Source: Camellia lanceoleosa (lineage: Eukaryota; Streptophyta; Magnoliopsida; Ericales; Theaceae). Taken from it: a DNA stretch of 64,000 bases. The DNA lies in the NCBI GenBank assembly GCA_025200525.1, contig CM045761.1, positions 57,375,438 to 57,439,437 of the forward strand. The letters are read 5' to 3'. A program made the translations under genes and the position numbers. Every line of letters begins with the position of its first letter. Position 1 is the stretch's first letter. This document shows positions 24,193-64,000 of the stretch, one piece after another. The notes under the pieces are model-generated. The model did no database searches. It saw nothing but the letters and a program-made list of their open reading frames with translations, and was not told where the DNA came from.

Positions 24193-24347
24193 CGCTAGAG
24201 CGTCAGATTGGCCACTCAAGCGGACCTACGCTCGAGCGCGGAAAGTGTCGCTCGAGCGATAAAAAACAATATCCAGTATTTTTGCAGGCGAACAAACTTC
24301 TGAAACCCAGCATTCTCCGCTCGAGCGGGGGAATGTCCGTTGGAGCA
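24193..24347 (-). promoter_or_regulatory. CTCGAG dyad cluster in LTR E1
   Basis: Three pairs, all with 20-bp steps: 24193/24213, 24229/24249 and 24318/24338. The best copies read CGCTCGAGCG. CCAGTATTTTTGCAG at 24273 separates them, as in LTR A1 and, in forward form, in LTR B1 and E2. Confidence 0.8.
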
Positions 24348-25703: not shown

Positions 25704-26776
25704 TATTAGGTGTTTATTCTTGACAATCCTATTTGACAAAACTCCTTTCTGTTGTAATTGTATTCGACCTTTTATTTCAATGTGGCTATGAGTTTTTATA
25801 TGCGAATCCAACCCGAGTTGTGCCTTGCAGAGAGGTGTTTCAGAAGTTAATTCATTCTTGTTTGCCACTTCGCTAACTATGTCGGGGATCGAACTACTTG
25901 GTTAGCTCGTGGGGGTCGAGGGAGCAATGCCCCTTGGCAGGTTCGGAGCAACGTGATGGTAGGGTCGAGGGGCAGTGCCCCCGAAGAAAAATGAAAAAAT
26001 GCATTCAAAATTGCTTGTCCGCTCGAGCGGCCGTTTGTGCGCTCGAGCCAAGAACATTTGGTTCCAGAAGTTTGACCTGTCTGCAAAAGTACTGGAAGTT
26101 GGGATTTTACGCTTGAGTGAACTTTCCTGCGCTCGAGCGAGGTCCGCTCGAGCGACCATTCCTACACTCAAGCGGAGAACACGGATTTGTTTTCTATAAA
26201 TATGTGTTTCAGTCTGTTTTTAGGGTTACGGCTTCTAGATCTTTTTCTTGGATATTAGGATTTATATCTAGAGCTTCTTTGCTAGTTTCTTTGATGTTTA
26301 TTTGAGTTTGAATCTGGTTTGAAAAGTATACATCAAAGGATTGCTTGTTTCCTTTAATACAAAAGAGAGTGTTGTTCTTCGGTGGATTCTGTGGAATTTG
26401 AGCCTGAAGCTGTGGTGGATTCCGAAGTGGCTCATCGTTGTGATTCAACATCGGTCTTGTGGATTCAATGTTGGGCAAGACTATTCCCAGGTAAATACGG
26501 GGCTGGAAGAGGCACATAGGGATCAGTTTGATTCGAGTATGGATTTGCTAGGTAATTAAGAGTGCACTTGTGTAATTCCTTTTGTCTTCTTAGTGGGTTG
26601 TTTTGTGGCTTTTGCCCATGGTTTTTTTTATCACAATTGGCGGCGCTCCAATTGTGATTTTTCCACGTAAAATCGTTGTGTCGATTTATCTTGATTGTTT
26701 GATTAGGATTGTTATTTACTGCTTAAAATTGGTACATAATCACAAATCAATATTTAGGGTATTTCTAGGTTTTACA
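25704..26776 (+). mobile_element. LTR E2: solo LTR
   Basis: 1073 bp from TATTAGGTG to GGTTTTACA, flanked by a perfect target duplication AATAG (25699-25703 and 26777-26781). It matches LTR E1 in inverse orientation throughout. Its U3 start (GTCGGGGATCGAACT, CAGTGCCCC, AAAATGCATT) and dyad block also match LTR B1, although the rest of the two LTRs does not. The first bases should be TG; TA here fits a G-to-A change. Confidence 0.85.
26020..26174 (+). promoter_or_regulatory. CTCGAG dyad cluster in LTR E2
   Basis: Pairs start at 26020/26040, 26110/26130 and 26145/26165, each 20 bp apart. CTGCAAAAGTACTGG at 26081 lies between the first and second pair, and AGAAGTTTGACCTGT precedes it. The same order is found in LTR B1. 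Confidence 0.8.
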
Positions 26777-27628: not shown

Positions 27629-27818
27629 TGTTACCTATAGTATATTCTATAGCATATTCTCTATATAGATATGCCTTATCTGTGTAATACAGTATATTCT
27701 CTATATATACTTATCTTCTCTCCTACAGAAAGGAGTTTGTACTATTCATTGATTATCAAATTGAATACAAGAGTTTTCTCTTTTCTCTTCATTTCTCTCT
27801 CTTTATAATATCATAACA
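27629..27818 (+). mobile_element. 5' LTR of copia element
   Basis: TGTTACCTATAG to ATCATAACA, 190 bp. Repeated TATATTCT words occupy the first half. The equivalent of the TATA-like TATATAAAGG seen in the 3' LTR reads ACAGAAAGG here, so the promoter of this copy may have been lost. Confidence 0.95.
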
Positions 27819-27829
27819 TGGTATCAGAG
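27819..27829 (+). other. Primer binding site of copia element
   Basis: TGGTATCAGAG abuts the 5' LTR with no gap and is complementary to the 3' end of initiator tRNA-Met. Confidence 0.9.
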
Positions 27830-28700
27830 TCAATGCTCTCTTCTTCAATCGTATCCGGCTCACCACCTTTATTTTCCGCTATTCCAAATAGCCTTTGGCG
27901 CACCACGTTCTCCTTCAAATAATTGTGTGTCTTTGTTCCTAGTTTTTTCCGCCTAAAACCCAAAATAACTGGCGCAAAGACCATCACTCCATGAATCTAT
28001 CGCCACCAAACCGACACCAAAATCACTTCTAAAGCGCTCTTATGCGCCTCCAGAAGCCTCGACGCATCATTTTCGGCATCACCATGCGCACATGCGCTCT
28101 AGGGAATATGTTTGATCTGTCATACGCTCTTATGCGCGCATCTCAACTGCATCTTGCTAACCTCAACATGACATCAGCCTTATGTTCAACCATCTGTCGC
28201 TGCTTCCATCAGCTACTAACATGCGATGTGCCTTCTTTGCTACACTACGCCATGCCATAGCCATGCTAACGTGAGTCGCGCCTCTACTGACATTAGCTTC
28301 CCTCATGCTGACGTCAGCCATGCACCTTGTTTGGCCAAAATTCAATTTTTGGCTTGTTTTACCTATTTTTTTACACATTTTGGGATCATTTTGGCCTGGG
28401 TTCTAACTATTTTCGACGTTCCAGATTCACTGGTGCACTCTGTTTTATCCAGTTCTACTCCGCCATCACTGGTTCCCCTTTGGGATTCATTATTTAATCA
28501 CCTCATGGCTTGTTCAGATAGTTACCCTCAGTACGGTAACTATTCTAGACCCTCCACAATATACAGCCGAAATCAGTCTTCAGCACATTTTTCATCTACT
28601 ACAGTTGCCTCTGGTTCATCATCCGCAGTTTCCTCATCACCACCCTACACTCTTCAAAACATTGAAGCTATTGTAAAAAGGTTACTTCTACCTCTGGTAC
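27830..28700 (+). other. Leader of copia element lacking gag
   Basis: The region where a gag of about 300 residues should lie shows no capsid motif and no CX2CX4HX4C zinc knuckle in any frame. It has stops throughout and two related TGACGTCAGCCATGC-like words near 28305 and 28265. Part of the PR-proximal linker (Ser-rich, 28507-28700) is open. Gag has been deleted or replaced by unrelated sequence. Confidence 0.7.
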
Positions 28701-31700
28701 ACCCTCTACTGTCCTCTCAGTTACTCCAGGTACCTCTTTTTGGTATTTTGATTCCACTTGTTGCAACCATATGACCACTAACCCTACACTTTTCTCGTCT
28801 ACTACATCTTCTTCTACGTTACCTGTTATTTACACTCCTGATGGCTCTCAAATGCATGTTAGTCATATAGGTCATATTTTCACCTCTACTGTTTCTCTAT
28901 CCCACACTTATCTGATCCCCAATCTTATACTTACTCTTGTTTCAATTGGTCAACTCTATGATCTTGGCCTCACTGTTTTCTTTTCTCTAACTAGTTGTGT
29001 TGTGTAGGATTCGAAGACGAGACAAACTCTTGGGATTGGTCGTAGACATGGACGTCTGTATGAGCTTATCTACCATCGTATTCCCTTCTCTAGTCCTTCC
29101 ATTGTCCAGACTACTGCTCCTACTACTCCTAGTTCTCCTCTTGCCTTATGGCATTCTCGGGTAGGTCATGTTTCTTTTGGACGTTTATGGTCTCTAGTTT
29201 CTAGCGGTCAGTTAGGTCCTGTTTATAATGATAAAGTAGACTGTCTATCTTGTCAACTAGCAAAACAATCTGTTTTGCCATTTCTATCCAGTACTTCTAT
29301 ATCTCATGCACCTTTTGATCTCATACACTCTCATATTTGGGGACCAGCACCTAATCCCACTATGGGGAGATCTAAATACTTTGTCATTTTTGTAGATGAT
29401 TTCACTCATTTTACCTAGTTATTTTTTATGAAGTCTCACTCTGAGTTACCACAAATATACTATGATTTCTCACAAATGGTCAAAACTCAGTTTTCTTCCA
29501 CCATCAAAGTTTTCCATGCTAATAATGCCCAAGAATACAAAGAAACAATTTTTTTGAGATTTCTTTGTCAAAATGGCACACTTTCTCACTATTCTTGTCC
29601 TGGTACCTCCCAACAAAATGGTCGTGCTGAGCGTAAACATTGCCATCTTTTAGATATTGTCCATGCTCTTTTAATTTCCTCTTCTTGTCATGAGCGCTTC
29701 TAGGGGGAAACCGCTCTCACAGCTGCCTATACTATCAACCGTGCTCTTTCTTCTACCATCAACAATCACACCCCATATGAGCACTTATATGGCCAACCTC
29801 TTGTTTATTCTTATCTCTGTGTGTTTGGATGTGCTTGTTTTGTCCTGTTTCAACCACACGAGCATTCCAAATTAGGACCTCGAGCCTGTTTGTGTTGCTT
29901 CTTGGGGTATAGAATTGAACATAAAGGCTATCGTTATTGGGATCCTATTTCTTAACATCTTTGTGTCTCTCGTCATGTGGTATTTTGGGAAGACAAGATA
30001 TTCTCTTCCATATCTAAGTTTCAGTTGTTCACTCCTTCCACTACATCATTCTTCACAGATCCCTCTTTTTTGTTTGATGAGCTTGATACAGACACTACTT
30101 CTACCATGCTACCTTCGGCTTATCTTGAGGATCTTGCTCCGCCTCTTGATCCTGCGGATGCTCCACTCCTTGATCCTATTCCTAGTCCTGCCACACTGCC
30201 TCCGACCCATCCTGAGGATCCTACTTTGCCCCCTAGTCCTACTTATGAGGTACCTCTTCCTCATTCTACTTGAGTAACACACCTTTCTATCTTTCTTCGT
30301 GATTTCATTATTGGTTCTGCTGCATTTTCATTCATGACCCTACTTCCTATCAAGAGGCTTGTTTTAACCCTCTTTAGCAGCAAGCTATGATTGATGAACT
30401 ACAGGCTTTTAATAAAAACTCATACTTAGGATGTAGTTGATCTTCTTCCTAGCAAAAGTGTTGTTAGTTGCGAATGGGTTTACAAGCTCAAGACTCATTC
30501 TGATGGTTCTATTGAGTGTTACAAAGCTCGTCTTGTTGCCTAGGGATTTACTCAAGAATATAGGATTGACTATGAAGAAACCTTTGCTCCTGTTGCCCGT
30601 CTAACTTTTGTTCGTAGCTTACTTTCCGTTGTTGCTGCTTGCCATTGGAAACTTTGTCAGATGGATGTGAAGAATGCATTTCTCAATGGAGATCTCACTA
30701 AGGAAGTTTATATACAACCTCCTCCTAGTTCCACTGTTCCGCCCTCCAAAGTCTACAAAGTCCGTCATGCTTTGTATGGTTTGAAACAAAATTCGCATGC
30801 TTGGTTCGCCAAGTTTAGCTGGATGATTCATGATTTTAGATTCTCCTCTAGTGCCTATGATTCTTCCTTTTTTATTCGTAAGACAGAGCGTGGTACTATT
30901 CTTCTTCTTCTCTATGTGGATGATATAATAATCACTGGGGATGACACAGTGCATATCTCTACTCTCAACCAATTTCTCAGTCGCCAATTTGAGATGAAGG
31001 ATTTAGGTCTTCTCAGTTATTTTCTCAGCTTAGAAATCTCTCATGATTCGTTTGGTTACTTTCTCTCTGAGGCCAAGTATACTTCTAATCTCTTGGCTCA
31101 TGCTGGTCTTATCGATTGCAAGACTGCCTCTACTCCCGTTGATCCTCATACTCGTCTTATACCTCTTGACAGTCACCTATTGTCTGATGCTACTTTATAT
31201 CGTCAACTAGTTAGCAGTCTTGTCTATCTCACGGTTACTCGTCCAGACATTGCTTATGCTGTTCACGTTGCTAGTGAGTTCATGGATCCTTCTCGCTCTC
31301 TATACTATGATGCTCTAGTTCGCATTTTATGTTATCTCAAACGCACTATGTTTCATGGTCTTCACTACTCTGCTCACTCTTCCCTACAGTTACATGCATT
31401 TTCTGATGCTGATTAGATAAGAGACCCTACTGATCGTTGCTCTACTACAGGGTTCTGCTTCTTCTTGGGTTACTTTCTCATTACCTGGCATAGCAAGAAG
31501 CAAACTCTTACTGCTCGTTCTAGTGCTGAGGCTGAATATCGTGCTCTTGCTGACAATACTCAAGAGCTTGTATGTCTTCTTTGGCTTCTTTCTGATATAG
31601 GAATTCCTTATCCTGTTGCCACTAGTCTCTATTGTAACAATCAAAGTGCTATTCAAATTGCCCATAATGATGTCTTGCATGATCGCACCAAGCATATTGA

Positions 31701-31866
31701 GATTGATCATCACTTCATACGGTAACATGTTATTAGTGGCACTGTTCGTCTTATCTTTATTCCCTCCACTGATCAGACAGCTGACATCTTCACCAAGGCT
31801 CATCCTCTAGGACGATTTTCTGATTTGCTTTACAAGCTCAACTTGGTATATGCATTGCCACCTTGA
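28701..31866 (+). pseudogene. copia pol (PR-INT-RT-RNase H), inactivated
   Basis: Mostly one frame, from the PR region (WYFDST at 28741; the usual Asp-Ser-Gly reads Asp-Ser-Thr) through GAG-pre-INT (LWHSRVGH near 29148), the INT core, RT (LLYVDDIIITGDD near 30910, intact) and RNase H, to TGA at 31864. INT lacks two catalytic acids: HSHIWGP for HSD.WGP, and ANNAQEY for the DNGGEY type. RNase H has CNNQSA for CDNQSA. Stops at about 29006, 29419, 29701, 29953, 30271, 30541, 31414 and 31722 are mostly TAG or TAA from Trp or Gln codons. Polymerase and integrase functions are therefore lost. Confidence 0.95.
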
Positions 31867-31867
31867 G

Positions 31868-31888
31868 CTTGAGGGGGGGGGGGGGAGG
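31868..31888 (+). other. Polypurine tract of copia element
   Basis: A purine run with about 14 consecutive G bases, ending directly at the 3' LTR. It primes plus-strand DNA synthesis. The long G run is probably a late expansion. Confidence 0.9.
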
Positions 31889-32078
31889 TGTTAACTATAG
31901 TATATTCTATAGCATATTCTCTATATAGATATGCCTTATCTGTGTAGAACAGTATATTCTCTATACATACTTATCTTCTCGCCTATATAAAGGAGTTTGT
32001 ACTATTCATTGATTATTAAATTGAATACAAGAGTTTTCTATTTTCTCTTCATTTGTTTATCTTTATAATATCATAACA
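31889..32078 (+). mobile_element. 3' LTR of copia element
   Basis: TGTTAACTATAG to ATCATAACA, 190 bp, followed by the target duplication GTCTC. It contains TATATAAAGG about 100 bp in, a good TATA-box candidate. Roughly a dozen mismatches separate it from the 5' LTR. Confidence 0.95.
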
Positions 32079-34209: not shown

Positions 34210-37200
34210 ACTTTTTAACTAGCATATCACCCATAGTATACACGAGATAAAATAATATATTATTTATTAAAAATATGATAATTGTATTTAATTTTTTTAC
34301 ATTTTGTCTCTTGTAAATAAAATTTTATATAGAAGTTTAAGGATTTTCTTTCAAATGTTTCTTTACTATAATATATGTTTATATAGATAGATTAAAATTG
34401 TTGTATTGACAATTGATGATTAAAATTATGCTTTGTTATAAAAAAAAATGACATAATTATAATACTTCACAATTTTAGAATAAAAATATATGAAGTTTAT
34501 AAAATTATCATATTGGTTTTTTGAAAAGAAAATAATTAAAGAAATTTAAAAAACATAATCAATACGAAAGAATCATTGTAACATATAAAATCGTTAAAAT
34601 TATGGTTAAATCAGAAAATGATTTAAACCAAAAATGGTTTAGCTTAATCAGTCAGGTCAAAACACTAACCAGCTTACACAAAAATTAATTAAATAAAATT
34701 TTTAAATTTTTTTTATTAAAATCTAAACTGTCACTAAATATTGAAAATAATCTATTAATTTAAATTTAAAAACGACACAACATAAATTAATAGATTTTTG
34801 GTTTAAATCATAATTTATAAGTTTTAAATATAAATTTAAAATTATCATAATAGATTATTTTCAATTTTAAATTTATGTTGATACTTTGAGCTCGTTATCA
34901 TAATAGATTATTTTCAATTTTAAATATAAATTTAAAATTATCATAATAGATAATTTATAAGTTTTAAATATAAATTTAAAATTATCATAATTATCTCATA
35001 ATGTTTGTATTGAGGAGCAGTAAGAGTGATATTGAGATTATCGATATATCTATATATTTTATAAAAGAATACTTTTAAGCAGAGATATTATGAGAGTTTC
35101 AAAATCCCATGCAAAATTATTTTTACAATCAAAACCTCTATGTGGGATTGTAAAGCAAAAGTTAAAGAGAAGCTAGTCAATCGGGATTTTCTTAATTGTT
35201 TAAAATTAAGAAAATCAAAAAAAAAAATAGTATAAGATATTAATTATAAGTCTTCCCAATAAAAATCTCATTTTGCTTATATAAATGAGAGTATAAAATT
35301 TACTTTATGTAAGTAAAATAATTCACTTTTTTCTTTTTTTTTTTCTCGATGTAAGATTATAAAATAAAATTTAAATGAAAGCTATCCGATGGGGATTTTC
35401 TTAATTGTTTAAAAGTTAACAATTGTTTGGGCGGGAAGTTTATTTCGAATCAAGGTAAATCTTTAATTTTTTTCGAATCAAACAAATTTAACCAACATAT
35501 TTTGATAAAACCGCTAAAATCACAGTTAAACTAGTAAATTAGTCAAAGCGAAAATGGTTCACCCTATCGGCTAGGTCAAAGGACCAACCAACTTATACAA
35601 AAATTAATTAATTAAAACTTTTAAATTTTATTTTAATTTTAAAATTTAAACTGTCTTGAACTGAAATATACACAACACTAAAATATTAAATGGGAGCATA
35701 TATAGTAAAACAACTCATTTTTTTCCTCCTTTTCCTGATTTGAGATTGTAAAATAAAAGTTAACAGTTGTTTGGACGGGAAGTTCATTTCTAATCAAGCA
35801 ATTTCAGTCGTTCAATTTTTAATAAGGTCAATCTTAGTTTATTTCAAATCAAACAAATCTAAGCAATATATTTTGATAAAACAGCTAAAACCATGATTAA
35901 ACCAGTGAATCAGTCAAACCAAAAACGATTTAGCCTAATCGGCTAAGTCAAAAGACGAACCAATTTACAACAAAATTAATTAATTAAAACCTTTAAATTT
36001 TATTTTAAAATTTAAACAATCTTTAACTGAAATATGTACAATGTTATATGTACAATGTTATAATATAAATGAAACAACTCACTTCTACTTTCTTTTCTCG
36101 ATGTGGGATTGTAATTATTTTAAAGTTAAATATTATGAGAGTTTCAAAATCTCATACAAAATTATTTTTAAAGTCAAAACATCTATGTGGGATTGTAAAA
36201 TAAAAGTTAAATGGAAACTAACCAATGGAGATTTTCTTAACTGTTTAAAATTAAGAAAATTTAAAAAAAATGGTATTAATTATAGGATTTCTTACTAAAA
36301 ATGTTCTTTTGCTTATATAAATGAGAGCATAAGATTCACTTTATATAAGTAAAACAATTCACTTTTTCCTTTTTTTCCTGTGTGGGACTAGAAAATAAAG
36401 TTAAATGGAAACTAATTAATGGGGATTTTCTTAATTGTTTAAAATTAAGAAATTTTAATAATTTATATAAATTAGAGTATAAGATTCATTTTATATAAAT
36501 GAACTAATTCGCTTTTTTTCCTTTTTTTCCCGATTTGGGATTATAAAATAAAAGGTAAATGGAAGCTAACCAATAGAAATTTTCTTAATTGTTTAAAATT
36601 AAGAAAATTCAATAATTTTATAATGAGGATTTGGAGCTTCTAGAAGGCTTATTTCTTAAAACCCCCTTTATAAGATTCACTTTATATGAGTGAAACAACT
36701 CAGTTTTTCTTTCTTTTCCCGATGTAGAATCATAACACTTTATATAAGTGAAACAACTCACTTTTTTTTTTTTTCTCGATGTGGGATTATAATTATTTTA
36801 AAGTTAAAAATTATGAGAGTTTCAAAATCTCATAGAAAATTATTTTTAAAATCAAAACGTCTATGTAGAATTATAAAATAAAAGTTAAATGGAAGTTAGA
36901 CAATGAAATTTTTTTTAATTGTTTAAAATTAAGAAAATCAAATAAATGAGTATGAGATATTAATCATAGGGTTTCTCACTAAAAATCTTATTTTACTTAT
37001 ATAAATAGGAACATAAAATTCACTTTATGTAAGTGAAACAATTCACTTTTTTTTTTTTCTTTTTCTGATGTGAGATTATAAAATAAAAGTTAAATTGAAA
37101 CTAGCCAACGGAAATTTTCTTAATTGTTTAAAATTAAAAAAATTCAATAATTTTATAACAAGGATTTGGAACTCTTAAAAGACTTCTCCCTAAAAATCTC

Positions 37201-37230
37201 ATTTCCCTTATATAATATATAGATATCAGT
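34210..37230. repeat. Degenerate AT-rich tandem array
   Basis: Roughly eight diverged units of 200-350 bp. Each carries, in order, CTTATATAAAT, GATTCACTTTATATAAGT, a T-rich run, GATGTGGGATTGTAA, AAAGTTAAATGGAA and TTTTCTTAATTGTTTAAAAT. GATGTGGGATT-like cores lie near 35145, 35347, 35740, 36100, 36187, 36385, 36530, 36778 and 37065. The left end begins ACTAGCATATCACCC, which returns at 48288. It is probably part of a non-autonomous DNA transposon or a satellite-like expansion of one. No coding potential. Confidence 0.6.
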
Positions 37231-38831: not shown

Positions 38832-40740
38832 TGTAGCGATCCCAGTTTTGCCACATCGCTGAGTATGTCGGGGATCAAGCTGCCCGGTCAGCTCACGAGG
38901 GTCCAGGGGACAGTGCCATAGCGGGGTTAAGGGGCAACGCCCCTTAAGCAAAAATGCAAAATGCATTAGAAGTTGATTCTCTGCTCGAGTGGCCATTTAT
39001 ACACTCGGGCAGAGAATGTTTGGTTTCAGAAGTTTGACATGTCTGCAAACGTACTGGGAAAGTGTATTTGACACTCAAGAGGGCTTTCCAAGCTCGAGCA
39101 GACCATGTTATATCAGTTTGTGAATCTAATATTTCAGATCACTTTTGTATATCTCTCTAAAAACCCTTTCCTCTCCTTTCTCTCTACATTTCCCTACGCC
39201 AAATTGGATCAAAACCTTGATTTCTCGAGATCCATTAGAGTTCTACTATAAGTTCTTCATCAAAGTTGGTTAACTTCTCGAGGGCTTCGTTATGTGCAGT
39301 GAAGAACGAGTTTTGACACCGTTGATTTTGGGGGTTTCATCTCATTTCTTCTTCAAAACTTGAGGTAGGGATTTTCTTAGAGTTATATATATATATATAT
39401 ATTTGCAAGATTTATACGATTTTCAAAATCATCTTTCGATAGCTTTAAAAATTGATTATTGATTCAAGAAGTTGAGCGATTTTGAAAGTGGGTTTGTCTC
39501 TTGTTCTTTTAAAATGATCTTATGTGTTTTGATTTTCGTTGATTGAAGAAAAGATGATTTGAAAAAGTTTTCTTTCAAAAGATTTGAGTTGTATAGTTTT
39601 GGTGAGAAAACCTAGAATTTGGGAATTTTTTTTTAAAGAAACTGAAAATCCATGAATGATATTGTTATATTTATTTTGTATGTCAAAATAAATGAATGTT
39701 TGGAAATTTTGTTATTTATATTTATATAAATGATGAATTTCAGGGAATATGAGAATTGCTGTTCATTTTGGAAATTATTGTTCAAAACGTTAAAATAGTC
39801 TTGAAATGACTAATTGTTGAGGATACTTGAGAAGAGGGAATTATGTTATTCCTTGGATGATGAATTGGAATAAAAATATTTATATTCATCTTGTGTTATT
39901 AGCATGTCAATTCATTTGATTACATTAAACTTTGAAAGTTGATTTGAAAACTTGCATTGAAAAAAGAATATTGAAAAACGAGTTTCCATGAATTGGTTTT
40001 GGGGTAAATACAGTGGTAAGTGTTGACAGGTCATGTAGATGAAATTGAATAGATGTCGAGCCTTCCAGTTAATACTAGTAAACATGACAGATTATAGGTG
40101 TCGAGCCTTCCAGTCAATGCTGGTAAAAATGACAATTTGGTAGTACTTGTATAGTGTACTTGCAGACACCGACCTAAGGATTACCAAAGTCGTATTTTCT
40201 GCCCTTGAAATAAATTGTCAAGTTTTGAACAATTGAAATTGCATGACATCATTGAGCATGATGGTTTTCAAAAGATGAAAATGTGATTTATCTTCAAAAA
40301 GGGGCATAGCATGGCATGTGCATTTCATCTCTTGAGACTTGTATAAAATGTATATACTTTGTTAATGATTTCCTATAGGGCTTTATGCTCACCATACGGG
40401 ATTTTTGTACAGGAAAAGATGTGGTGATGCCGCCTAACTAAAGGCGAGAAAATGTGTGTTAAGAGCACGAGACTCTCATTTTGCTGTGACTCTGTGTGTA
40501 AGCCAATGGATGTATGTGTGTGGGTTTGAATAACTGTTTTGTATAACCAGGCTCAAGCCTTGGAAACTTGTAAACCCTTGGGGGTATTTATTTGTTTATT
40601 TGCTTGTTGTTGGATTAATGTATTGTTGCATGAAGAACTATTGTATCATGTAATGTAAGTTTGGAGATTTATATTCGGTTTTCCTTGAAAGGGCCATGAT
40701 TGTTGTATTATCATTTGGGCTAGAAATTTGGGGCATTACA
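38832..40740 (+). mobile_element. LTR B1: 5' LTR of the gypsy element
   Basis: 1909 bp, TGTAGCGATCCC to GGGGCATTACA, followed by a primer site. It matches LTR B2 (53594-55745, minus). Visible parts are a U3 with GTCGGGGATCAAGCTG and dyads, a leader with GAGGTAGGGAT at 39363, a (TA) run at 39390, and the GTCGAGCCTTCCAGT duplication near 40054-40105. Confidence 0.9.
38982..39100 (+). promoter_or_regulatory. CTCGAG dyads in U3 of LTR B1
   Basis: Pair 38982/39002 (20 bp) and pair 39072/39091 (19 bp), with CTGCAAACGTACTGG at 39043 between them. Cores have decayed (CTCGAGTG, CTCGGG, CTCAAG), but the order and phase match LTR E2. Confidence 0.75.
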
Positions 40741-40743
40741 ACT

Positions 40744-40755
40744 TGGTATTAGAGC
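40744..40755 (+). other. Primer binding site
   Basis: TGGTATTAGAGC, one C-to-T change from TGGTATCAGAGC, three bases after the LTR end. Initiator tRNA-Met type. Confidence 0.9.
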
Positions 40756-41600: not shown

Positions 41601-44051
41601 TGTCATGACCCAAACCCACCCCTATGGGTTTAGCACCGTAACTGGCCAGTAATCCGAGATTACCGAAGGCCTACTTAACAGTAATACAGAGTACAGGGGC
41701 TGGCGGAAGCCAAAACAGTAAATAGAAGATGTCTAATGAGCTGTGACATTCTGTATGCAAAAAAACTTTTTACACATATTCACATAAACAGTACATATAC
41801 ATTCATATACAATCATCCAGGACAGGGACTTAATCCCTATTAGAACAGTACAGTACAATTATCATTCAGTCTATACAGTATTACATACGGAGACAAAAGG
41901 GGGAAACTAAAACACCCCAAACAGCCTTGGCTCGGTCAGGCTTGGAACCTCAAGGTGAGGCACAGTGGTTGGCTCGACAAAAAGGGAGTTTAACCCAACG
42001 CTTCTAGCATCAATCCGGTGTCTGTACACCTACATATATTTATGAGCAGTAAGCTAAAGCCCAATGAATAACGTATGCGTAAAGAGGTTAAAAATGAATG
42101 TCCTTTCAGTATTGAAAACAGTCAATTATCAGTACATCAGTCATTCAGTTTGTGGCTCATATTTCATGCCATAACAGTCATTCAGAAACTATAATAGTCA
42201 TATGTGGTACATCCAGTAGCAAATAGTGCAGTAGGTCTTAACAAACCGAACAGTCAGTTAATGGCCATCATATTAGTAAACAGTAGTGGTTCTAACATGG
42301 GAACCGACAGAGATCTCTGTAACAGTAGCAGTACAGTACAGTAACAGTAAATTGCTATGGATGCCACAAATACATTTCACAAATAGGACAAACATTCATT
42401 CAGTAAGAAATATCATTTCAGAAAGCAGTACAGTTATTCATTCAGAAAATATTCATGATCGAACATATCTTTACAACATTGTTACTCACAGAGTTCTAGG
42501 CTACAGATAAGCTAGTGCGCGTTCTCAGATGCCAACCCTACACAGTTACAGGATGAACACACACTAAGTCACATACTTGGGAATCGAAGACTTAGTCCCT
42601 ACTTAGACTCGGTGTGGTTCTACATCAATATCCTCATTAAGATGCCTTAAACTAGGCCTAAGAATGCCTAGAATGGAATGAGGATGCAATGATGCACTTT
42701 TAAACACTTTACAAAATTTTCAGAAAACAGGGGTCATGCTCGAACGTGTCTTTCTACGCTCGAGCGAACATGTAGACAAAGGATCCCCGCTCGAGCGTCA
42801 CTTTCTTCGCTCGAGCGGACTGTAAAACATGGCAAAAGTATTGGATGCATGAAATTCACGCTCGGCGGGCGCTCGACTCCTGCTCGAGTGTGTGACTCAG
42901 GTCCCCGCTCGAGCGTGCATTTCCTCACTCGAGCGTACAGTAAAGCAATACAAAGTGCTGGTTACCCGTATTCCGCGCTCGAGCGCCACTTTCCCCGCTC
43001 GAGCGTGAGTCCAAATTTTGGAAATTCCAGATTGAGCCTTCAAGCTCAAAATCAACTTTTAATGCATCAAACTCGATCCTTTTGGACTAATTTTCAGGAA
43101 AACACTTGTAAACTCATAGTATAACATGATTTAAAGCTCAATTTGTGAAATCAAGGCCCAAAGGTGAGTCAATTAAACACAATTTTCAAATAAACTTCAA
43201 GAACATGAAGAACAATGCAAATTCAACACATGCATGGGTTCCTTGGAACTCCAATGTGCTAAAACAAGATTGAATACAAGATTTAACTTCAAAACATGGT
43301 GAGTTCATGGATCAAGACCCAAAATATGAACATGCATGCAACAATTTTCATGAAACAACTTCAAAACTTCAATATATGCACATGCATGCATGGTCTAAGC
43401 CTTAATTCAACTCATTAAGCCAATTCTAGACTCAACTCAGTAAACTTCCATGAACCATGCAATATATGACTTAATTTAACAATTAAGAGGATAAATTCCA
43501 TACCTAGGTTCCTCAATTACAAGAATGAGAACTCAATTATGGAATCAACCTTCAATTCCTTTAATTTCCAAGCAAAACCTTCAAGTTGAACTCAATTTCC
43601 CTCACTCTCTCACTCAAATCGGTTTTAGCTCTCAAAATGGCTGAGGAAAAGGTGCTCAAACAATGTAGAGGGTGAGAGGAGGAGTGGTCTAGCATAACCC
43701 ACTAAGTGGCAATTTGTGAATAAGTCTAACTTACGTAATTAATCAATAATTAATCTAATTCAATCATACCAAATCACATTTCAATTAAATATACCATAAA
43801 ATCACATAAATTCTAATTAGCACATAACACTAATCAATTTCAGATTCGGCCGCCGATAAGGCCTTCAACTTACAGTTTAAAACATAAAACATGAACAGAT
43901 AATTTAGCAATCAAATAGATAGACGCGAAATTAAACTAATACACTCAATCAATCCGTTCAGAATTTCAGTCAATCAGTCAATTAACATGCTTAATCATAG
44001 ATTAGCATTAATCAGTGGTATTATCAGTAAACAGCGGTGAGGGTTGTCACA
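41601..44051 (-). mobile_element. LTR F: solo LTR inserted in gag
   Basis: 2451 bp, TGTCATGACCC...GGTTGTCACA, with a perfect target duplication ACTAA (41596-41600 and 44052-44056) inside the gag frame. Orientation minus is chosen because the minus strand starts TGTGACAACCC, has a GAGGAACCTAGGTATGG block near 43510 (compare GAGGTAGGGAT in A, B and D) and a GGGCTTTAGC block near 42055 (compare GGGCTTTGGCTCACC in D). The dyad cassette sits in the middle and is antisense to the LTR. Confidence 0.9.
42737..43005 (+). promoter_or_regulatory. Best-preserved CTCGAG dyad cassette, inverted within LTR F
   Basis: Pairs start at 42737/42757, 42788/42808, 42906/42926 and 42976/42996, all exactly 20 bp, plus 42859/42881. 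Six sites are perfect CGCTCGAGCG. Spacers are pyrimidine-rich on the plus strand (TCACTTTCTT, CACTTTCCC, GCATTTCCT), as they are on the sense strand of LTRs A and E. GCAAAAGTATTGG at 42832 lies between pairs. As LTR F is on the minus strand, the cassette is flipped, and lies 1.0-1.3 kb from the LTR start. Confidence 0.85.
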
Positions 44052-44957
44052 ACTAAGAGTGACTCTAGTGAGTTACTACCTTAAGGGAGACGCGGGTCAA
44101 TGGTGGAAATATGCCAAGGGTAGAGTGGAGCCAACATGGGAAGCCTTTGCAGTTGCTTTCCAAGATAAGTACATACCTCCCACTGCTATGGAGAGATAGA
44201 GGCAACAGTTTAAAGACCTCAAACAACTCGACATGCCTGTGGCTGAGTTTGAGGCGGTCTTCTCTAGTTTGTCCAGATTTGCACCAGAGTTGGTGGCAAC
44301 GAAAGAGCTCCGTTGCATTGAATTTGAAAAGAAATTGAAAACAAAAATTGTGTTCAACCTTGTCGGAAATATGATTCGAGAATATGACTGTCTTGTGGAG
44401 ACGGCGACATATGTAGAAATTTCCATACAAGTCAAAGAGGAGAGGCTTCGGAGTTTGAGGTCTAGGGGCCAAGAGTCTCAAGGAGACTATAGGCAGAACA
44501 AGAAGAGAAGTAACACCTATCCATCCTAGTCCCAACCACAGCAGTCTAGATCCACTTTTCCTTTGCCTAGTGCGGGTCTGGGAAAAAGTGCATCGAGTAG
44601 CTTCTCATGTTTTAAGTGTGGCCAACCGGGTCACAAAGCCTTCTCATGCCCACAGAAGGGAGAAGGGTAGTTAATATTACCACCACCTAACCGATCTCAA
44701 AGTTAGTCTCAGTCTCAGTCTCAGAATAAAGGTCAAGGGTTTAATTGTTATCAGTGTGGTTAGCCGAGGCATATGAAAAGAACTTGCCCACAGTTGGGAG
44801 GCGCACCTGGCGCATCAGGGTTGAGAAAGACTCGGAGCCACCAGTAGGCTCAATCAGTCCAAGCTTCGCGAGTTAATCAGGGAGTCGCTTTGGCTCAGTC
44901 AGTACAACAGGTCTATGCTCCGAGAGAGGAGCAAGTCAATCAGGGCCACAAGGGCGC

Positions 44958-45695: not shown

Positions 45696-46735
45696 AGAGC
45701 GTCGGCTCTCTTTGGAAAGAAGAAGGATGGGTCATTGCGGTTGTGTATTGATTATCGCAAGTTGAATAGAGTTACAGTTAAGAACAAGTATCCTCTACCC
45801 AGAATAGATGATTTGTTTGACCAACTTAGAGGGTCTCGTTGCTTCTCAAAATTAGATTTGAGGTCGGGATACCATCAGTTGAGAGTCCGGGAGGAGGACA
45901 TTCAGAAGACGGCCTTTCGTACTCGTTATGGCCACTATGAATTCCTTGTAATGCCTTTTGGGTTAACCAATGCACCGACTTCCTTTATAGATTTGTTGAA
46001 CAGAATTTTTCGGGAATACTTGGACCGTTTTGTAGTCGTCTTTGTGGATGACATCTTGATTTATTCAACCTCTGAAGAGGAACATGAGACTCACTTGCGG
46101 GTAATGCTGGGTTTACTTAGTGAGCACCAATTGTATACCAAATTTGAAAAATGCAAGTTTTGGTTAACAGAGGTGAAGTTTTTAGGGCATGTAGTGTCTA
46201 GAGAGGTAATGACTGTGGACTCCTCAAAGATAGATGTCGTACAAGATTGGGAACAACCCAAGAATGCTTTTGAAATCTGGAGTTTTGTGGGATTAGCGGG
46301 GTATTACCGATGTTTTGCAAGAGACTTCTCTAGACTAGCTGCACCTTTGACTAGGTTGACTAGAAAGGGTATCAAATTTGTGTGGAGTGAGGCTTGTGAA
46401 AAGTCATTCCAAGAGCTTAAAACTAGATTGACTACCGCACTGGTTTTGATAATTTCGGAAAGGGGTTTGAATTACACTGTCTATTGTGATGCATCAGGAG
46501 ATGGAATTGGTTGTGTCTTGATGCAAGAGGGAAACGTTGTGGCTTACGGTTCACAACAATTGAAAACTCATGAAAAAAAGTTACCCCACCCATGATCTAG
46601 AATTAACAGTGGTGATTTTTGCTTTGAAAATTTGGAGACATTACTTGTACGGTGAGAAGTTTGAAATCTTCTCTGATCATAAGAATCTAAAGTATTTGTT
46701 TTCTTAAAAAGACTCGAATTTACGACAACGGAGGT
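45696..46735 (+). pseudogene. gypsy reverse transcriptase and RNase H
   Basis: Same frame as the previous block: [45 protein letters not shown] and FVDDILIYS (from 46041) are RT palm and finger motifs; the Asp-Asp pair is intact. RNase H follows with [15 protein letters not shown] frameshift near 46588 and TAA at about 46706 (from CAA) break the reading before the integrase linker. RT copies the element RNA and RNase H removes it. Most of the catalytic chain is still readable. Confidence 0.92.
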
Positions 46736-49282: not shown

Positions 49283-49615
49283 TCAAGTGGCACTTCTTGC
49301 ACTTGAGCGGGCTTTGCAAATTCTCAGTACTTTTGCAGGTTTGCAAAATTACTAAGAGAGTGTATTCTATGCTCGAGCGGTGTTTCTTATGCTTGAGCAG
49401 GTGGGCGCTCAAGTGGCCTTTCATGTGCTCGACCGTTGGCTTTGTTGCTTGTAAAACTGCTGGATGTGTGCTTTCTACGCCCGAGCGTCACTTCTTGCAC
49501 TCGAGCGATGTGTGCCTCTTTCATTGTGTCTTGTCGCTCAAGCGTCACTTCTTGCGCTCGAGCAGAATAACTTATTGTGTCTTGGCGCTTGAGCGTCACT
49601 TCTTGCGCTCGAGCT
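49283..49615 (+). promoter_or_regulatory. CTCGAG dyad cluster in U3 of LTR A2
   Basis: Pairs at 49478/49498, 49535/49555 and 49586/49606, each 20 bp apart, with the spacer TCACTTCTTG repeated. Further degenerate sites are at 49283-49430. AGTACTTTTGCAGG at 49326 is the same interior word as in the other LTRs. Confidence 0.8.
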
Positions 49616-49710
49616 GACTGTGCGTATATAAGTTCGTGAAAATGAATTTTTACATCACTTTTTCAAATCTTTTCTTCCTAAACACTAAAGTTGAAACCCT
49701 CTCTCTCTAA

Positions 49711-55306: not shown

Positions 55307-55369
55307 AAAGGTGATATGAAATATCAGATTCACGAACTGATATAACATGGTCTGCCCGAGCATGGAATG

Positions 55370-55475
55370 CCCCGCTCGAGCATCAAATACACTAACCCAA
55401 TACTTTTGTAAACAGGTTAAACTTCTGAAACCAAACATTCTCTACTCGAACGCATAAACGGCAGCTCGAGCGGAC
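55370..55475 (-). promoter_or_regulatory. CTCGAG dyads in LTR B2
   Basis: CCGCTCGAGC at 55372, CTACTCGAACGC at 55441 and AGCTCGAGCG at 55462 flank an ACTTTTGTAAAC word. This is a decayed version of the cassette in LTR B1. Confidence 0.6.
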
Positions 55476-55745
55476 AAGCACCTTCGACTGCATTTTGCAT
55501 TTATGTTTTGGGGGCACTGCCCTTCAACCCCGCTAGAGCGCTACCCTAGGACCCGCCAAGCGGCGCTACCCCTTGGACCCTTGCGAGCTGACTAGGCAGC
55601 TCAACCCCTACCAGGGCGCTACCCTTGGACCCGCCAAGACACACTACCCCCTAGACCCCCGCGAGTTGAACGGGCAGCTCGACCCTCGACCGGCCCAGTC
55701 GAAGTGGCAAAACATGAAAGAAGGATCGAAACCGGGATCACTTCA

Positions 55746-57013: not shown

Positions 57014-58212
57014 AACGGTATAGTTTTGCCCCGTAGCACTTGCTCCCGGGTATCTAATATTTGAACCGGTCGTTCTTCGTAAGAGGCATCCTCATCTACC
57101 TCCAAGTAAACCCAATCAAGAACATGGAAAGGGTCGGGTTCATACTTCCTAAGCATAGATACATGAAATACGTTGTGAACTCCCAAAAGTTGTGGTGGTA
57201 AAGCTAACCGGTACGCCACTTTCCCAATTCACTCTAAGATCTCAAAAGGCCCAATGAACCTTGGAGATAATTTACCACTCTTACCAAATCTCATCAAACC
57301 CCGCCTTGGTGAAATCTCATCAAACCCAGTAACGGTGCATCACCCACTTCGGCCCAACAAACCGGCGATCTACAAGGTCGGCTATATAAGGCCTCAAATG
57401 GTGCCATCCCAATATTAGCTTGGAAACTATTGTTGTAAGCAAACTTAATCAATAGTAAGTGTCTTTCCCAAGGCCCCTTAAAATCAAGGACACAAGCTCT
57501 AAGCATGTCCTCCACGGTCTGAATGGTACGTTCCAACTGTCCATTGGTTTGAGGATGATAAGCGGTGCTAAGAGTCAACTTAGTACCCAACGCCTCTTGA
57601 AGGGTTTTCCATAACCGGGTAGTAAAACAAGGATCGCTATCTGACACAATAGTCATAGGGACTCCATGAAGTCAAACTATCTCTCTAATGTATAACTCTG
57701 CCAAGCATTCAACTGAGTCGCTGGTGCACATCGGAATGAAATGGGTAGACTTAGTCAACCTATCAATAATCACCCAAACGGCGTCATTGCCTTGTAGTGT
57801 TCTAGGAAGCCTAACTACAAAATCCATGGTAACACACTCCCATTTCCACTTGGCTATTGGTAAGGGTTGTAACAAACTTGTTGGTCTTTGGTGTTCGGCC
57901 TTCATTTGTTGACAAGTAAGGCACTTCGATACAAATAAAGTGACATCCCATTTCATACCCGTCTACTAAAACTGACGACTAAGATCATGATACATTTTAG
58001 TGCCTCCTGGGTGTACCGCAAGACGTGTGTGATGGAACTCCCGAAGTACTTCCTCTCTACAAGATTCTGGTACAAACAAACGATCTAGGTAACGTACACT
58101 CAGATCCAAGTGAATGTTCAAACCTTTCTTTTCCTTTCCATTAGAAATCTTAACACAGATTGATTCCACATCACGGTCTCCTCGTTGTGCCTCTATGACT
58201 TTACTAACTAAG

Positions 58213-58650
58213 GTATTAAAGCATATAACCACATATGGAGTACATCCCCTATCTCCTCCCAAACAAGATAGATATACAATGTATTAAAGCAAATAACCAC
58301 ATATGGAGTACATCCCTATCTCCTCCCAAACAAAGATACATATACAATGTATTTAAAACATATAATCACATTTGTACTACATCCCCTATCTCCTCCTAAA
58401 CAAAAATACATGTACAATGTATTTAAAGCATTTAATCACATATGGAGTACATCTCCTATCTCCTCTCAAACAAAGATACATATACAATGTATTTAAAGCA
58501 TTTAATCACATATGGAGTACATCTCCTATCTCCTCTCAAACAAAGATACATATACAATGTATTTAAAGCATTTAATCACATATGGAGTACATCCCCTATC
58601 TCCTCCCAAATAAAGATACATATACAATGTATATAAACACTTTATCATAT
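58213..58650 (-). repeat. 70-bp minisatellite, six units, in LTR A3
   Basis: Six units of about 70 bp, each with CACATATGGAGTACATC, CTATCTCCTC, CAAACAAAGATACATATACA and ATGTATTTAAAGCA. Units 4 and 5 are almost identical. LTR A1 has about two shorter units (1470-1560) and LTR D three 33-bp ones (61640-61715). Copy number therefore varies between LTRs. Confidence 0.9.
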
Positions 58651-59463
58651 ACAATGATCAATTAATGCGCATATTCAATGTGTTATTCCAACCGTCATAT
58701 TCGATGACATATTCCAATTGATTAGTTTCAATTTACATAATCATCATGCAATTCTACAACAATAATGGCTATCCTCCACCGATAGCCCAAAATAGTTATT
58801 TCTAAACAGATAAGTAAATTTACCAAACAGATAAGTTATTATATTTTATCACCGGTGAGTAATTTATCAATCCAACTACACCATTCAATCTCATGTTTTC
58901 CCAATCCCATAATTTCCAAACCAATTTCATATTTTCCCAATGTTTCATAATTTACACAAATAATTTATATAGCTCGAATTATGACATTATCCTCCCTTCC
59001 TCAAAACTTGCAATCAAGGCCAAATTCCTTTCATTTTACCTACCTATTTCCACTATCAAGACCTCATATACACATTGGAACCCAATCATGGAAAACCCTT
59101 CTTTCAACATTTCAAATTTCAAGCCCTAACTTTCCAAAATTTTCAAATCTCACCATTTATACAAAAAAGCTAATATTTATGTTAAAACTCATAAGAAGGA
59201 GTAGTTTATCCCTACCTCAAAGTTAGGAGCCCAAAGGAGAAGAAGAAGAAACTTGAAAGTGCTCCAAATCAACACTTTTTTGGATCAAAACGTAGCCCAC
59301 GCAAAGCTCAAGCTTTTATACAAAGGAGGTAGGGTAAGAGAACTATAGATCAAGAGCATCTGTAGAGAGAAGGGATATTTTAGAGAGAGTGTGTGTTGGA
59401 TCTAGGATTTGGAGATAAAAGAAATCAAAAAGTGAAGAAGAAAACCGCTGCTGTGATCTGATA

Positions 59464-59840
59464 TATGCGAGGCTCACCCAAGCGAAAGACTTGTCGCTCG
59501 AGCGACCAGACACAATAAACACCTCGCTCGAGTGCAAGAAGTGTCGCTCGAGCGAAAAATGAGAAGTTTCAGGTCTGCAACCCAACTGCACGCTCGAGTG
59601 CACGAGTGCTCACTCGTGCAAAGGAACACAAAACATAGAGCTAGCTCGCTCGCTCAAGCGAAGAATACCAACCTTCAGGTTTTTCAAAGACGCAGACGCA
59701 TGCTCGAGTGCAAGAGTGCTCACTCGAGCGAAGAGACATACCACACAAACCTTGCTCGAGCACAGGAAACCTAGCTTGAGCGAAGGAACTAAAACCCAAG
59801 GCTCGCTCGAGCGACAAAAGCCTCACTCGAGCGAAGAAAC
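59464..59840 (-). promoter_or_regulatory. CTCGAG dyad cluster in U3 of LTR A3
   Basis: About 14 sites. Pairs at 59525/59545 and 59591/59611 have the 20-bp step. Variants include CGCTCGAGTG, CACTCGTGCA and GCTTGAGCG. On the LTR sense strand the spacers are T/C-rich (ACACTTCTTG), as in LTR A2. Confidence 0.8.
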
Positions 59841-62827: not shown

Positions 62828-64000
62828 ATGTCCGGACGAGGACGAGGTGGTAGGCGTGGTAGGACTAGGAGGCAAGAGGTGCCTATATCGGATGAGATTC
62901 CGGCACAAGAGGAGGGTGTTGGTCAGGCCAATGTGGTCAAACTGGTTGGTTAGCAGGCCATGGGAGCCTTAGCCCGTGAGATGGCCGGAGCTTTGAGGGA
63001 ATCTATGGGCATTCTCTGAGCTGAGAATCAAGCCCAGGCCCATGTAGCCGAAGTATGGCCTTTTTTCTTGAAGAGGGAATTTTTCCGGTCAAATCCAGAT
63101 GAGTTTTTAGGAGATCCTAAGGAGCCATTGAAGGCTGATGAGTGGCTTGAGCAGATGATGAAGACATTTGAGATGCTTGGCATCGAAGACGGGGTCTTGA
63201 AGGTGACCTTGGCATCTTTCCAGTTGAAGAGAGACGCGGGTCAGTGGTGGAAGTTCATGCGGGGTCGTATTTGAAGGACTTGGGAGGCTTTTGTTGATGC
63301 CTTCCAGGAGAAGTTTTTGCCTCCCACTGTCAGGGAGAAGTTAAGGGACCAGTTCTGTCGGCTCAAGCAGCTGAACACACCTGTGGCGGAGTTTGAGGCC
63401 ACCTTTGCTATCCTATCTAGGTTTGCACCTGAGCTAGTGGCGTCTGAAAAATGCCATTGCCTTGAGTTCGAAAAGAAGTTAAGGACCAAGCTCAAGCTTA
63501 GGGTTGCTGGGTCCATGACTCGGGAGTATGGGCATCTTGTGGAGGTTGCGGCCCATCTTGAGATTATTATACATAAGGAGGAGGAGAGAACAAGGGGCTC
63601 TAGAAGGAGTCAAGATGGTCAGGGGGACGACAAGAGACAGAGGGGTTCTAACCCTCAGCAATCCCAGGGAGTTCAGACGAGGTCTACCTTTCCAGTGCCT
63701 AGTTCAGGTTCTGGAAGAGGCGGACAAGGAGACTTCACTTGTTACAAATGTGGTCAGTTGGGCCACAAGTCTTCAACTTGCCCGCAGAGGGGAGGAGGAC
63801 AGCGTGCAACATCATCTTTGACTTGCCCTCAGAGCCAAAGTCAGGGTACAGGCCTGTCGCTTTCTTATTATCAGTGTGGGCAAGCAGGGCACCTAAAAAG
63901 GTTTTGCCCGCAGTTGAGTGGCACATCTGGTGCATCTGGTTCGAGGCAGACACAAAGCCATCAGCCAGCTCAGTTAGTTCAGGCCTCGAGGGCCAACCAG
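62828..64000 (+). pseudogene. gypsy gag, runs off the window
   Basis: Starts ATG TCC GGA CGA GG (MSGRGRGGRRGR). Then ALAREMAGALRESMGIL, SNPDEFLGDPKEPLKADEWL, LASFQLKRDAGQWWKFMRGR, NTPVAEFEATFAILSRFAPE and two zinc knuckles: CYKCGQLGHKSSTC (about 63743) and a second one beginning YYQCGQAGHLKRFC, whose first Cys is Tyr. Stops at about 62953 (TAG), 63018 (TGA) and 63272 (TGA from CGA) make it dead. It is the same family as the gag at the left edge and close to that at 41177. This copy is the most complete gag in the window. Confidence 0.92.

Follow-up and report, generated by a model that had tools for sequence, protein, structure and literature searches.

Arrays of a 10-bp palindrome, CGCTCGAGCG, whose copies lie in pairs 20 bp apart, are found in several families of LTR retrotransposon in a 3.0-Gb plant genome, and we propose that these arrays are probably promoter-proximal enhancers of the U3 region, bound by a dimeric factor together with a second factor (we put this at about 70%). 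The pattern is seen directly in the sequence and its geometry, in copy number, in the better conservation of palindrome cores than of spacers, in the TATA-like boxes that adjoin the arrays of groups A, B, E and G, and in the polarity of the spacers. The window referred to throughout is the whole 64-kb stretch that was analysed, positions 57,375,438–57,439,437 of contig C4.

Exact copies of CGCTCGAGCG in the window number 18, and the count rises to 41 when one mismatch is allowed and to 61 when two are, against means of 0, 0.3 and 2.9 in dinucleotide shuffles of the window. Sites with at most two mismatches are called near sites here, and two near sites 20 bp apart a near pair. There are 3 exact pairs at this step, 12 at one mismatch or fewer and 22 at two or fewer, and ten dinucleotide shuffles of the window per threshold gave none. 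An earlier, sequence-only reading of this DNA had listed 19 pairs, and all 19 were recovered at the starts it gave, each 20 bp apart. Both palindromes are exact in three of them (24229/24249, 42788/42808 and 42976/42996), both members have at most two mismatches in 16, and one member has three mismatches in the other three (24318/24338, 38982/39002 and 59591/59611). Six near pairs beyond that list, starting at 2413, 2499, 49406, 59701, 59753 and 59804, bring the total to 22. The pair pattern in the window is confirmed as real. Its occurrence in several LTR families also stands, but the number of four given earlier is slightly high, since E and B can be aligned (73% over 257 bp) and form one group, so that the window holds three: A (arrays A1–A3), E/B and F. 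Across 19 oriented arrays, 117 of 137 near sites sit in a 20-bp pair. The pyrimidine-rich spacer strand described earlier was found as well, with a polarity specific to the family: the spacer is pyrimidine-rich in the sense direction in 30 of 36 pairs of A, E and B, and purine-rich in 25 of 27 pairs of F, G, H and locus L015.

The sequence-only reading held that known element parts did not explain this structure. That view is not supported: the A, B, E and G arrays stand directly before a TATA-like box, where U3 promoter sequence would be expected. Array A1 (2413–2724, minus strand) is followed by TATATCA 9 bp past its last site in the sense direction, and array A2 (49300–49615, plus), three spacers of which are identical (TCACTTCTTG), by a TATATAA box at 49625–49631 (plus), also 9 bp past the last palindrome. 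Array A3 lies at 59495–59833 (minus) and array E2 at 26020–26174 (plus), the TATAAAT box of E2 (26195–26201, plus) being 20 bp past the last palindrome; past the last site of array E1 (24193–24347, minus), the TATA-like TGTAAATA stands at the same 20 bp in the sense direction. Two arrays are decayed: B1 (38982–39100, plus), with two sites of at most two mismatches, has a TATATCA box at 39109–39115 (plus), 8 bp past its last palindrome, and B2 (55353–55540, minus) has TATATCA 8 bp past its last site, which carries three mismatches. Taken together, all nine A and B arrays have a TATA-like box 8–11 bp past the last palindrome in the sense direction, and all four E and G arrays have one 19–20 bp past it; the search pattern for TATA-like boxes was drawn up after the flanks had been read, and the array register was placed by eye in A3, B2 and the loci L009, L012 and L016. 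Downstream of the boxes there is a pyrimidine-rich leader, in several cases also with a splice-donor-like GAGGTAGGG or GAGGTAAGG. The promoter-proximal place is supported for the A, B, E and G arrays, but not for F or H. A conserved TTCCAGAAGTTTGACC-like stretch, which we take to resemble a heat-shock element, was also seen at 26050–26082 and in the linkers of the E and B arrays.

LTR B1 probably spans 38832–40743 (plus), from TGTAGCGATCCC at 38832 to just before the primer binding site. The primer binding site, TGGTATTAGAGC at 40744–40755 (plus), is presumably of the initiator-Met type, to which it has one mismatch. Behind it come a gag-like region (44083–44336), homologous to 63227–63480, whose frame holds Retrotrans_gag, then a protease at 44877, then a reverse transcriptase with RNase H (RVT_1, 45696–46592, plus) that was assigned to this gypsy-type element by position. 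This order, from primer binding site to reverse transcriptase, is that of Ty3/gypsy elements, and the element carries RVP_2 followed by RVT_1 and not RVT_2. The gag-like region, protease and RVT_1 behind the LTR and its primer binding site thus place the B1 element in the Ty3/gypsy type, a class assignment made from the one element with a readable pol, whose own array is decayed. A Ty1/copia-type element is also present at 27629–32078, with LTR-like repeats at 27629–27818 and 31889–32078 (94% identical), a primer binding site at 27819 and RVT_2 at 30544; the site scan of the window found no palindrome array in it. Self-alignment further revealed local tandem repeats at 58210–58651 and 35085–37215, with units of about 70 bp and several hundred bp.

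LTR F (41601–44051, minus) is a solo LTR that runs from TGTCATGACCC to GTTGTCACA as read on the plus strand, with a 5-bp target duplication, ACTAA, on both sides as judged by eye. Its insertion point lies in the gag-like region of the gypsy-type element that has B1 as its 5′ LTR. Its sense strand is probably minus, judging from a PBS-like word that follows the LTR in copy L004, a word read by eye and absent from the PBS search listing. The F array (42737–43005, minus) has nine near sites and four pairs at 20 bp, and its spacers are pyrimidine-rich on the plus strand, hence purine-rich in the inferred sense. A TATA-like word lies 32 bp away in three of five F copies and 28 bp away in L021, and none was found in L001.

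The earlier observation of a TGCAAAAGTACTGG-like word between pairs proved real, and the word has its own fixed distance to a palindrome. The word GCAAAAGTACTGG sits in the longer linkers of the arrays, and from its end to the next palindrome there are exactly 14 bp in 14 of 18 word-bearing linkers (word with at most four mismatches; window and sampled loci); the other four have a half-palindrome at 14 bp, exact in two and with one mismatch in two. An exact copy in array E2 (26083–26095, plus) stands 14 bp before the palindrome at 26110. LTR F has the form GCAAAAGTATTGG (42832–42844, plus) 14 bp upstream of a hybrid palindrome, CGCTCGGCGG, at 42859, and a degenerate copy with four mismatches (42949–42961, plus) 14 bp before the palindrome at 42976. 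Genome-wide, AAAAGTACTGG followed by the palindrome within 30 bp was found at 4,220 places (2,098 and 2,122 by strand), and the backward control for this pattern at none. Among the first 100 of the 4,220 listed, the gap is 14 in 79, 25 in 19, and 13 and 18 once each; of the 19 listed places with gap 25, 16 have CGCTC at 14 and three have a form of it with one or two mismatches. The 14 bases between word and palindrome vary. The next commonest distance among the sampled loci is 34 (8 cases against 13 at 14), which is that to the second palindrome of a pair, and the gaps of 14 and 34 therefore define a module of word, 14 bp, palindrome, 10 bp and palindrome.

Across the genome the pattern is on a much greater scale than the window alone suggests. 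Exact CGCTCGAGCG pairs with a gap of 8–12 bp number 64,558 in the 3.0-Gb host genome, and of the 95,144 exact pairs with a gap of 0–30 bp, 68% fall in these 5 of the 31 gaps. The pair pattern read backward, which is also a palindrome and of equal composition, gave no match genome-wide. Among the first 50 matches listed for gaps of 0–30, all near the start of contig C1 and some within one array, the gap is 10 in 32, 21 in 6, 22 in 8, and 11, 13, 15 and 23 once each; the dyad step in these 50 is 20 bp in 32 and 31–33 bp in 15, near two and three helical turns. The 20-bp step seen in the window is thus present in other copies in the genome. In a sample of 25 10-kb stretches chosen by place (250 kb), 8 had at least one near pair, and the near pairs total 32, or 31 if a register artefact in L012 is left out, every one of them from the first 20 stretches and none from the last five; as copies are related by descent, such counts are not of independent events. 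Extrapolated from these 250 kb, near pairs would number a few hundred thousand genome-wide, with a wide error because sites cluster.

Neighbouring sites up to 120 bp apart (window and loci L001–L024) have a step of 20 bp in 65 of 131 cases, the remaining 66 steps being mostly 29–32, 36–37, 45–46, 50–52 and 68–73 bp. Sixteen of these 66 lie near half turns (15–16, 24–25, 36–37 and 45–46 bp), so that phasing between pairs is loose, or approximate only. A single run of three sites at the 20-bp step (L020:9390–9430) was seen among the 65 pairs of the window and loci. An exact pair in two viral-contig stretches (61% and 65% G+C) was taken as chance. Locus L008 also holds a host reading frame for a SMUBP-2-like helicase (3028–4110), the best named relative of which is from Actinidia rufa, at 90%, and this match suggests that the host belongs to Ericales.

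Copies were aligned within groups (A, n = 6; E/B, n = 5; F, n = 5) and compared by pairwise identity. With the three groups taken together, core CpG letters are 84% identical, other core letters 85% and the 10-bp spacers 55%, in a comparison that is partly circular, since the aligner may match non-orthologous cores and so push the core figure up and the spacer figure down. Linkers within the arrays are 63% identical, flanks 60% and flank CpG letters 51%. Group F (cores 89%, spacers 54%, flanks 72%) and group A (cores 84–86%, spacers 56%, flanks 56%) both follow this pattern, whereas the contrast is weak in E/B (cores 71–75%, spacers 65%, linkers 73%, flanks 54%). The expectation that palindromes would be better conserved across copies than spacers is therefore borne out overall, and weakly in E/B. 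CpG transitions make up 92 of the 163 mismatches in 179 near sites, 56% against 20% expected from even substitution, and this excess indicates that many copies have been methylated. Despite this decay, CpG letters are better kept in cores than outside; the ratio of observed to expected CpG in the genome sample is 0.60.

When up to four of the longest matches per pair of groups were compared between A, E/B, F, L001 and L016b, they overlapped the arrays, bar a few of 20–37 bp (E 0.001). F and L021 share LTR sequence beyond the array too and are distant relatives. The word runs in the sense direction in E, B and G, antisense in F and H, and is mixed in A (two sense, three antisense). Since its directions are mixed in A, and since in G it is sense while the spacers are purine-rich, the direction of the word does not always go with the polarity of the spacers. 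An enhancer would be expected to look like this, with parts that occur in either direction and recur in LTRs that otherwise differ. The shared array could stem from common descent, the other similarity having been lost, or from exchange between families.

We propose that a DNA-binding protein, homodimeric or pseudo-symmetric, would recognise each CGCTCGAGCG, and that two such dimers would lie on one face of the DNA about two helical turns from each other, with a spacer of fixed length and with a pyrimidine-rich strand (core TTYC) between them. A second factor would bind GCAAAAGTACTGG, a fixed 14 bp from the first palindrome, and several of these modules, at steps of about 31, 50–52 or 70–73 bp, would stop a short way before the TATA box and drive the element's transcription. 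From the arrangement of the DNA we infer that protein binds the arrays, that the dimer and the second factor would be of host origin and that their effect would be activating. Cooperative binding of a dimer to two dyads on one face, as the sequence-only reading had suggested, would fit the palindromic sites, the 20-bp step, the kept cores and the polarity; the dyad-symmetric core has a fixed helical spacing within pairs, but beyond the pair phasing is approximate, and there the suggestion may hold only loosely. A stricter proposal is that one rigid code (word, 14 bp, palindrome, 10 bp, palindrome, in either orientation) would have been kept, or exchanged as a cassette, among dissimilar LTR families and would be read by one dimeric host factor and its partner. 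We regard this tentatively, at slightly less than an even chance.

The arrays might instead be a functionless 20-bp minisatellite, a CpG-rich unit spread by slippage or conversion and carried along by the LTRs. This is very unlikely given the overall identity of cores (84–85%) against spacers (55%), the scarcity of triplets at 20 bp (one among 65 pairs), the varied length of linkers between pairs, a separate word exactly 14 bp from a palindrome in 79 of the first 100 places listed, and TATA-like boxes at set distances behind the A, B, E and G arrays. Local duplication does occur, as the three identical A2 spacers show, pair flanks resemble the spacer, and E/B cores are little better conserved than linkers; a plain minisatellite was nevertheless rejected on core-versus-spacer identity together with the 14-bp word gap. 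No more probable is a hairpin of RNA or single-stranded DNA (10-bp stem, 10-base loop) under selection for RNA packaging, 3′ processing or as a source of small RNA, even though two exact pairs have folding energies of −18.1 and −17.2 kcal/mol (z −4.9 and −5.7), z is −3.8 or lower in 5 of 5 folded pairs, and in maize Sireviruses the LTR regions rich in palindromes are hot spots of small RNA according to the part of the source considered here (PMC5311732). Where the first palindrome of a pair has changed, the second shows no compensating change beyond chance (2 of 48, against 3.2 with shuffled partners), C>T and G>A are equal on the partly inferred sense strand (38 against 36) although only C>T keeps a G–U pair, and the arms of a hairpin need not each be palindromic. 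Selection for a hairpin thus found no support in partner compensation or in the balance of C>T and G>A.

Somewhat less improbable, if still unlikely, is that the arrays are the target of an element-encoded, VANC-like anti-silencing protein that removes DNA methylation. Dense short motifs in non-coding regions and the large differences between copies of the arrays would agree with such a target, and a sister palindrome, CCGCCGGCGG, in similar arrays would fit a changing specificity; however, a motif found in groups that resemble each other little beyond the array agrees better with a host factor, and the CpG decay argues that methylation was not prevented in many copies. Least probable of all is that the palindromes bind a host factor that represses or silences. 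An element would be expected to shed such a target, but the cores persist where the spacers change, and in four groups they stand beside TATA-like boxes; this outweighs the appearance of past methylation at the sites and the high repetition of the copies. We retain U3 enhancers as the probable reading of the arrays.

Palindromes of maize Sireviruses were reportedly treated by Bousios et al. in Genome Research in 2016. The LTRs of Sireviruses carry palindromic repeated motifs, called RM boxes, for which a regulatory role was proposed rather than shown (Bousios et al. 2010, PMC2829016). As far as they are described in the portion of that paper considered here, RM boxes are short CpG-rich palindromes, perfect or interrupted, that recur many times within an LTR and gather in its upper half, a short way ahead of a conserved TATA box, the rest of these LTRs being very divergent (PMC2829016); the A, B, E and G arrays share this position of a palindromic motif upstream of the TATA-like box. 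An RM of Vitis, CGGTCGACCG, is the same as CGCTCGAGCG in length and form, but the RM core is CGG-CCG in all but one case and here is CGCTC-GAGCG, and RM boxes belong to Ty1/copia Sireviruses whereas the only readable pol here, that of the B1 element with its decayed array, is Ty3/gypsy (PMC2829016, same portion). Unlike the RM boxes as described there, the dyads here are paired at 20 bp and accompanied by a second word at 14 bp; neither a fixed spacing between RM units nor a second word is described for Sirevirus LTRs in that portion of the source (PMC2829016). The arrays thus resemble RM boxes in position and form but differ in two defining features that were tested, the core and, for the B1 element, the copia lineage.

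The targets of VANC proteins in VANDAL elements are likewise short motifs, densely packed in the non-coding sequence of a transposon, and evolve by formation of tandem repeats (PMC5735166, in part). Their motif, YAGTATTAY, is in the same account not palindromic, belongs to DNA transposons, seldom occurs beyond a single family and is bound by a protein that the element itself encodes (PMC5735166); the elements here are LTR retrotransposons and not VANDAL (MULE-type) elements. The heat elements of ONSEN and the W-boxes of ATCOPIA93 are similar in being host-factor sites upstream of the LTR transcription start, but they are known motifs of known factors, and the section of the source drawn on describes no palindrome pair of fixed geometry across many LTR families (PMC12786077). 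An LTR piece common to otherwise different families is found in wheat, where exchange of an LTR segment between RLG_Quinta and RLC_Gisela, with gene conversion proposed, is reported in the part of the source used; that piece is one 162-bp motif tied to centromeric nucleosomes and not a code of spaced palindromes (PMC11302176). A literature search for the letters of CGCTCGAGCG, reaching mostly journals outside subscription, gave, among the papers listed, none that concerned a plant LTR by its title, and GCTCGAGC together with LTR and retrotransposon matched text in at least two plant papers (PMC5778186 and PMC8914173). No account of this motif was met in the literature reached.

If a single factor reads the code, it would be an activator shared by many LTR retrotransposon families and would help explain why this 3-Gb genome is large, and the hundreds of thousands of exact and decayed pairs, a number extrapolated from 250 kb, would be among the most numerous regulatory sites of the genome. 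The code provides an exact 30-bp bait and exact predictions of spacing for finding the factor. It also suggests that TATA-adjacent palindrome arrays, known from Sireviruses, may be a more general solution of plant LTRs.

The hybrid site CGCTCGGCGG, which consists of one half of each palindrome type, is found at 42859–42868 and at L002:1588. A model in which half-sites are swapped (CGCTC with GGCGG halves) came from these two exact hybrids and, with the gaps of CCGCCGGCGG pairs mostly 5–8 bp among those listed, was kept as a lead only. The sister palindrome CCGCCGGCGG is rarer than CGCTCGAGCG, with 64 pair places genome-wide, and was also seen at L015:2600–2720. Its pairs have similar spacers (CACTTCC, CAAACCC), and their dyads are, among those listed, mostly 15–18 bp apart.
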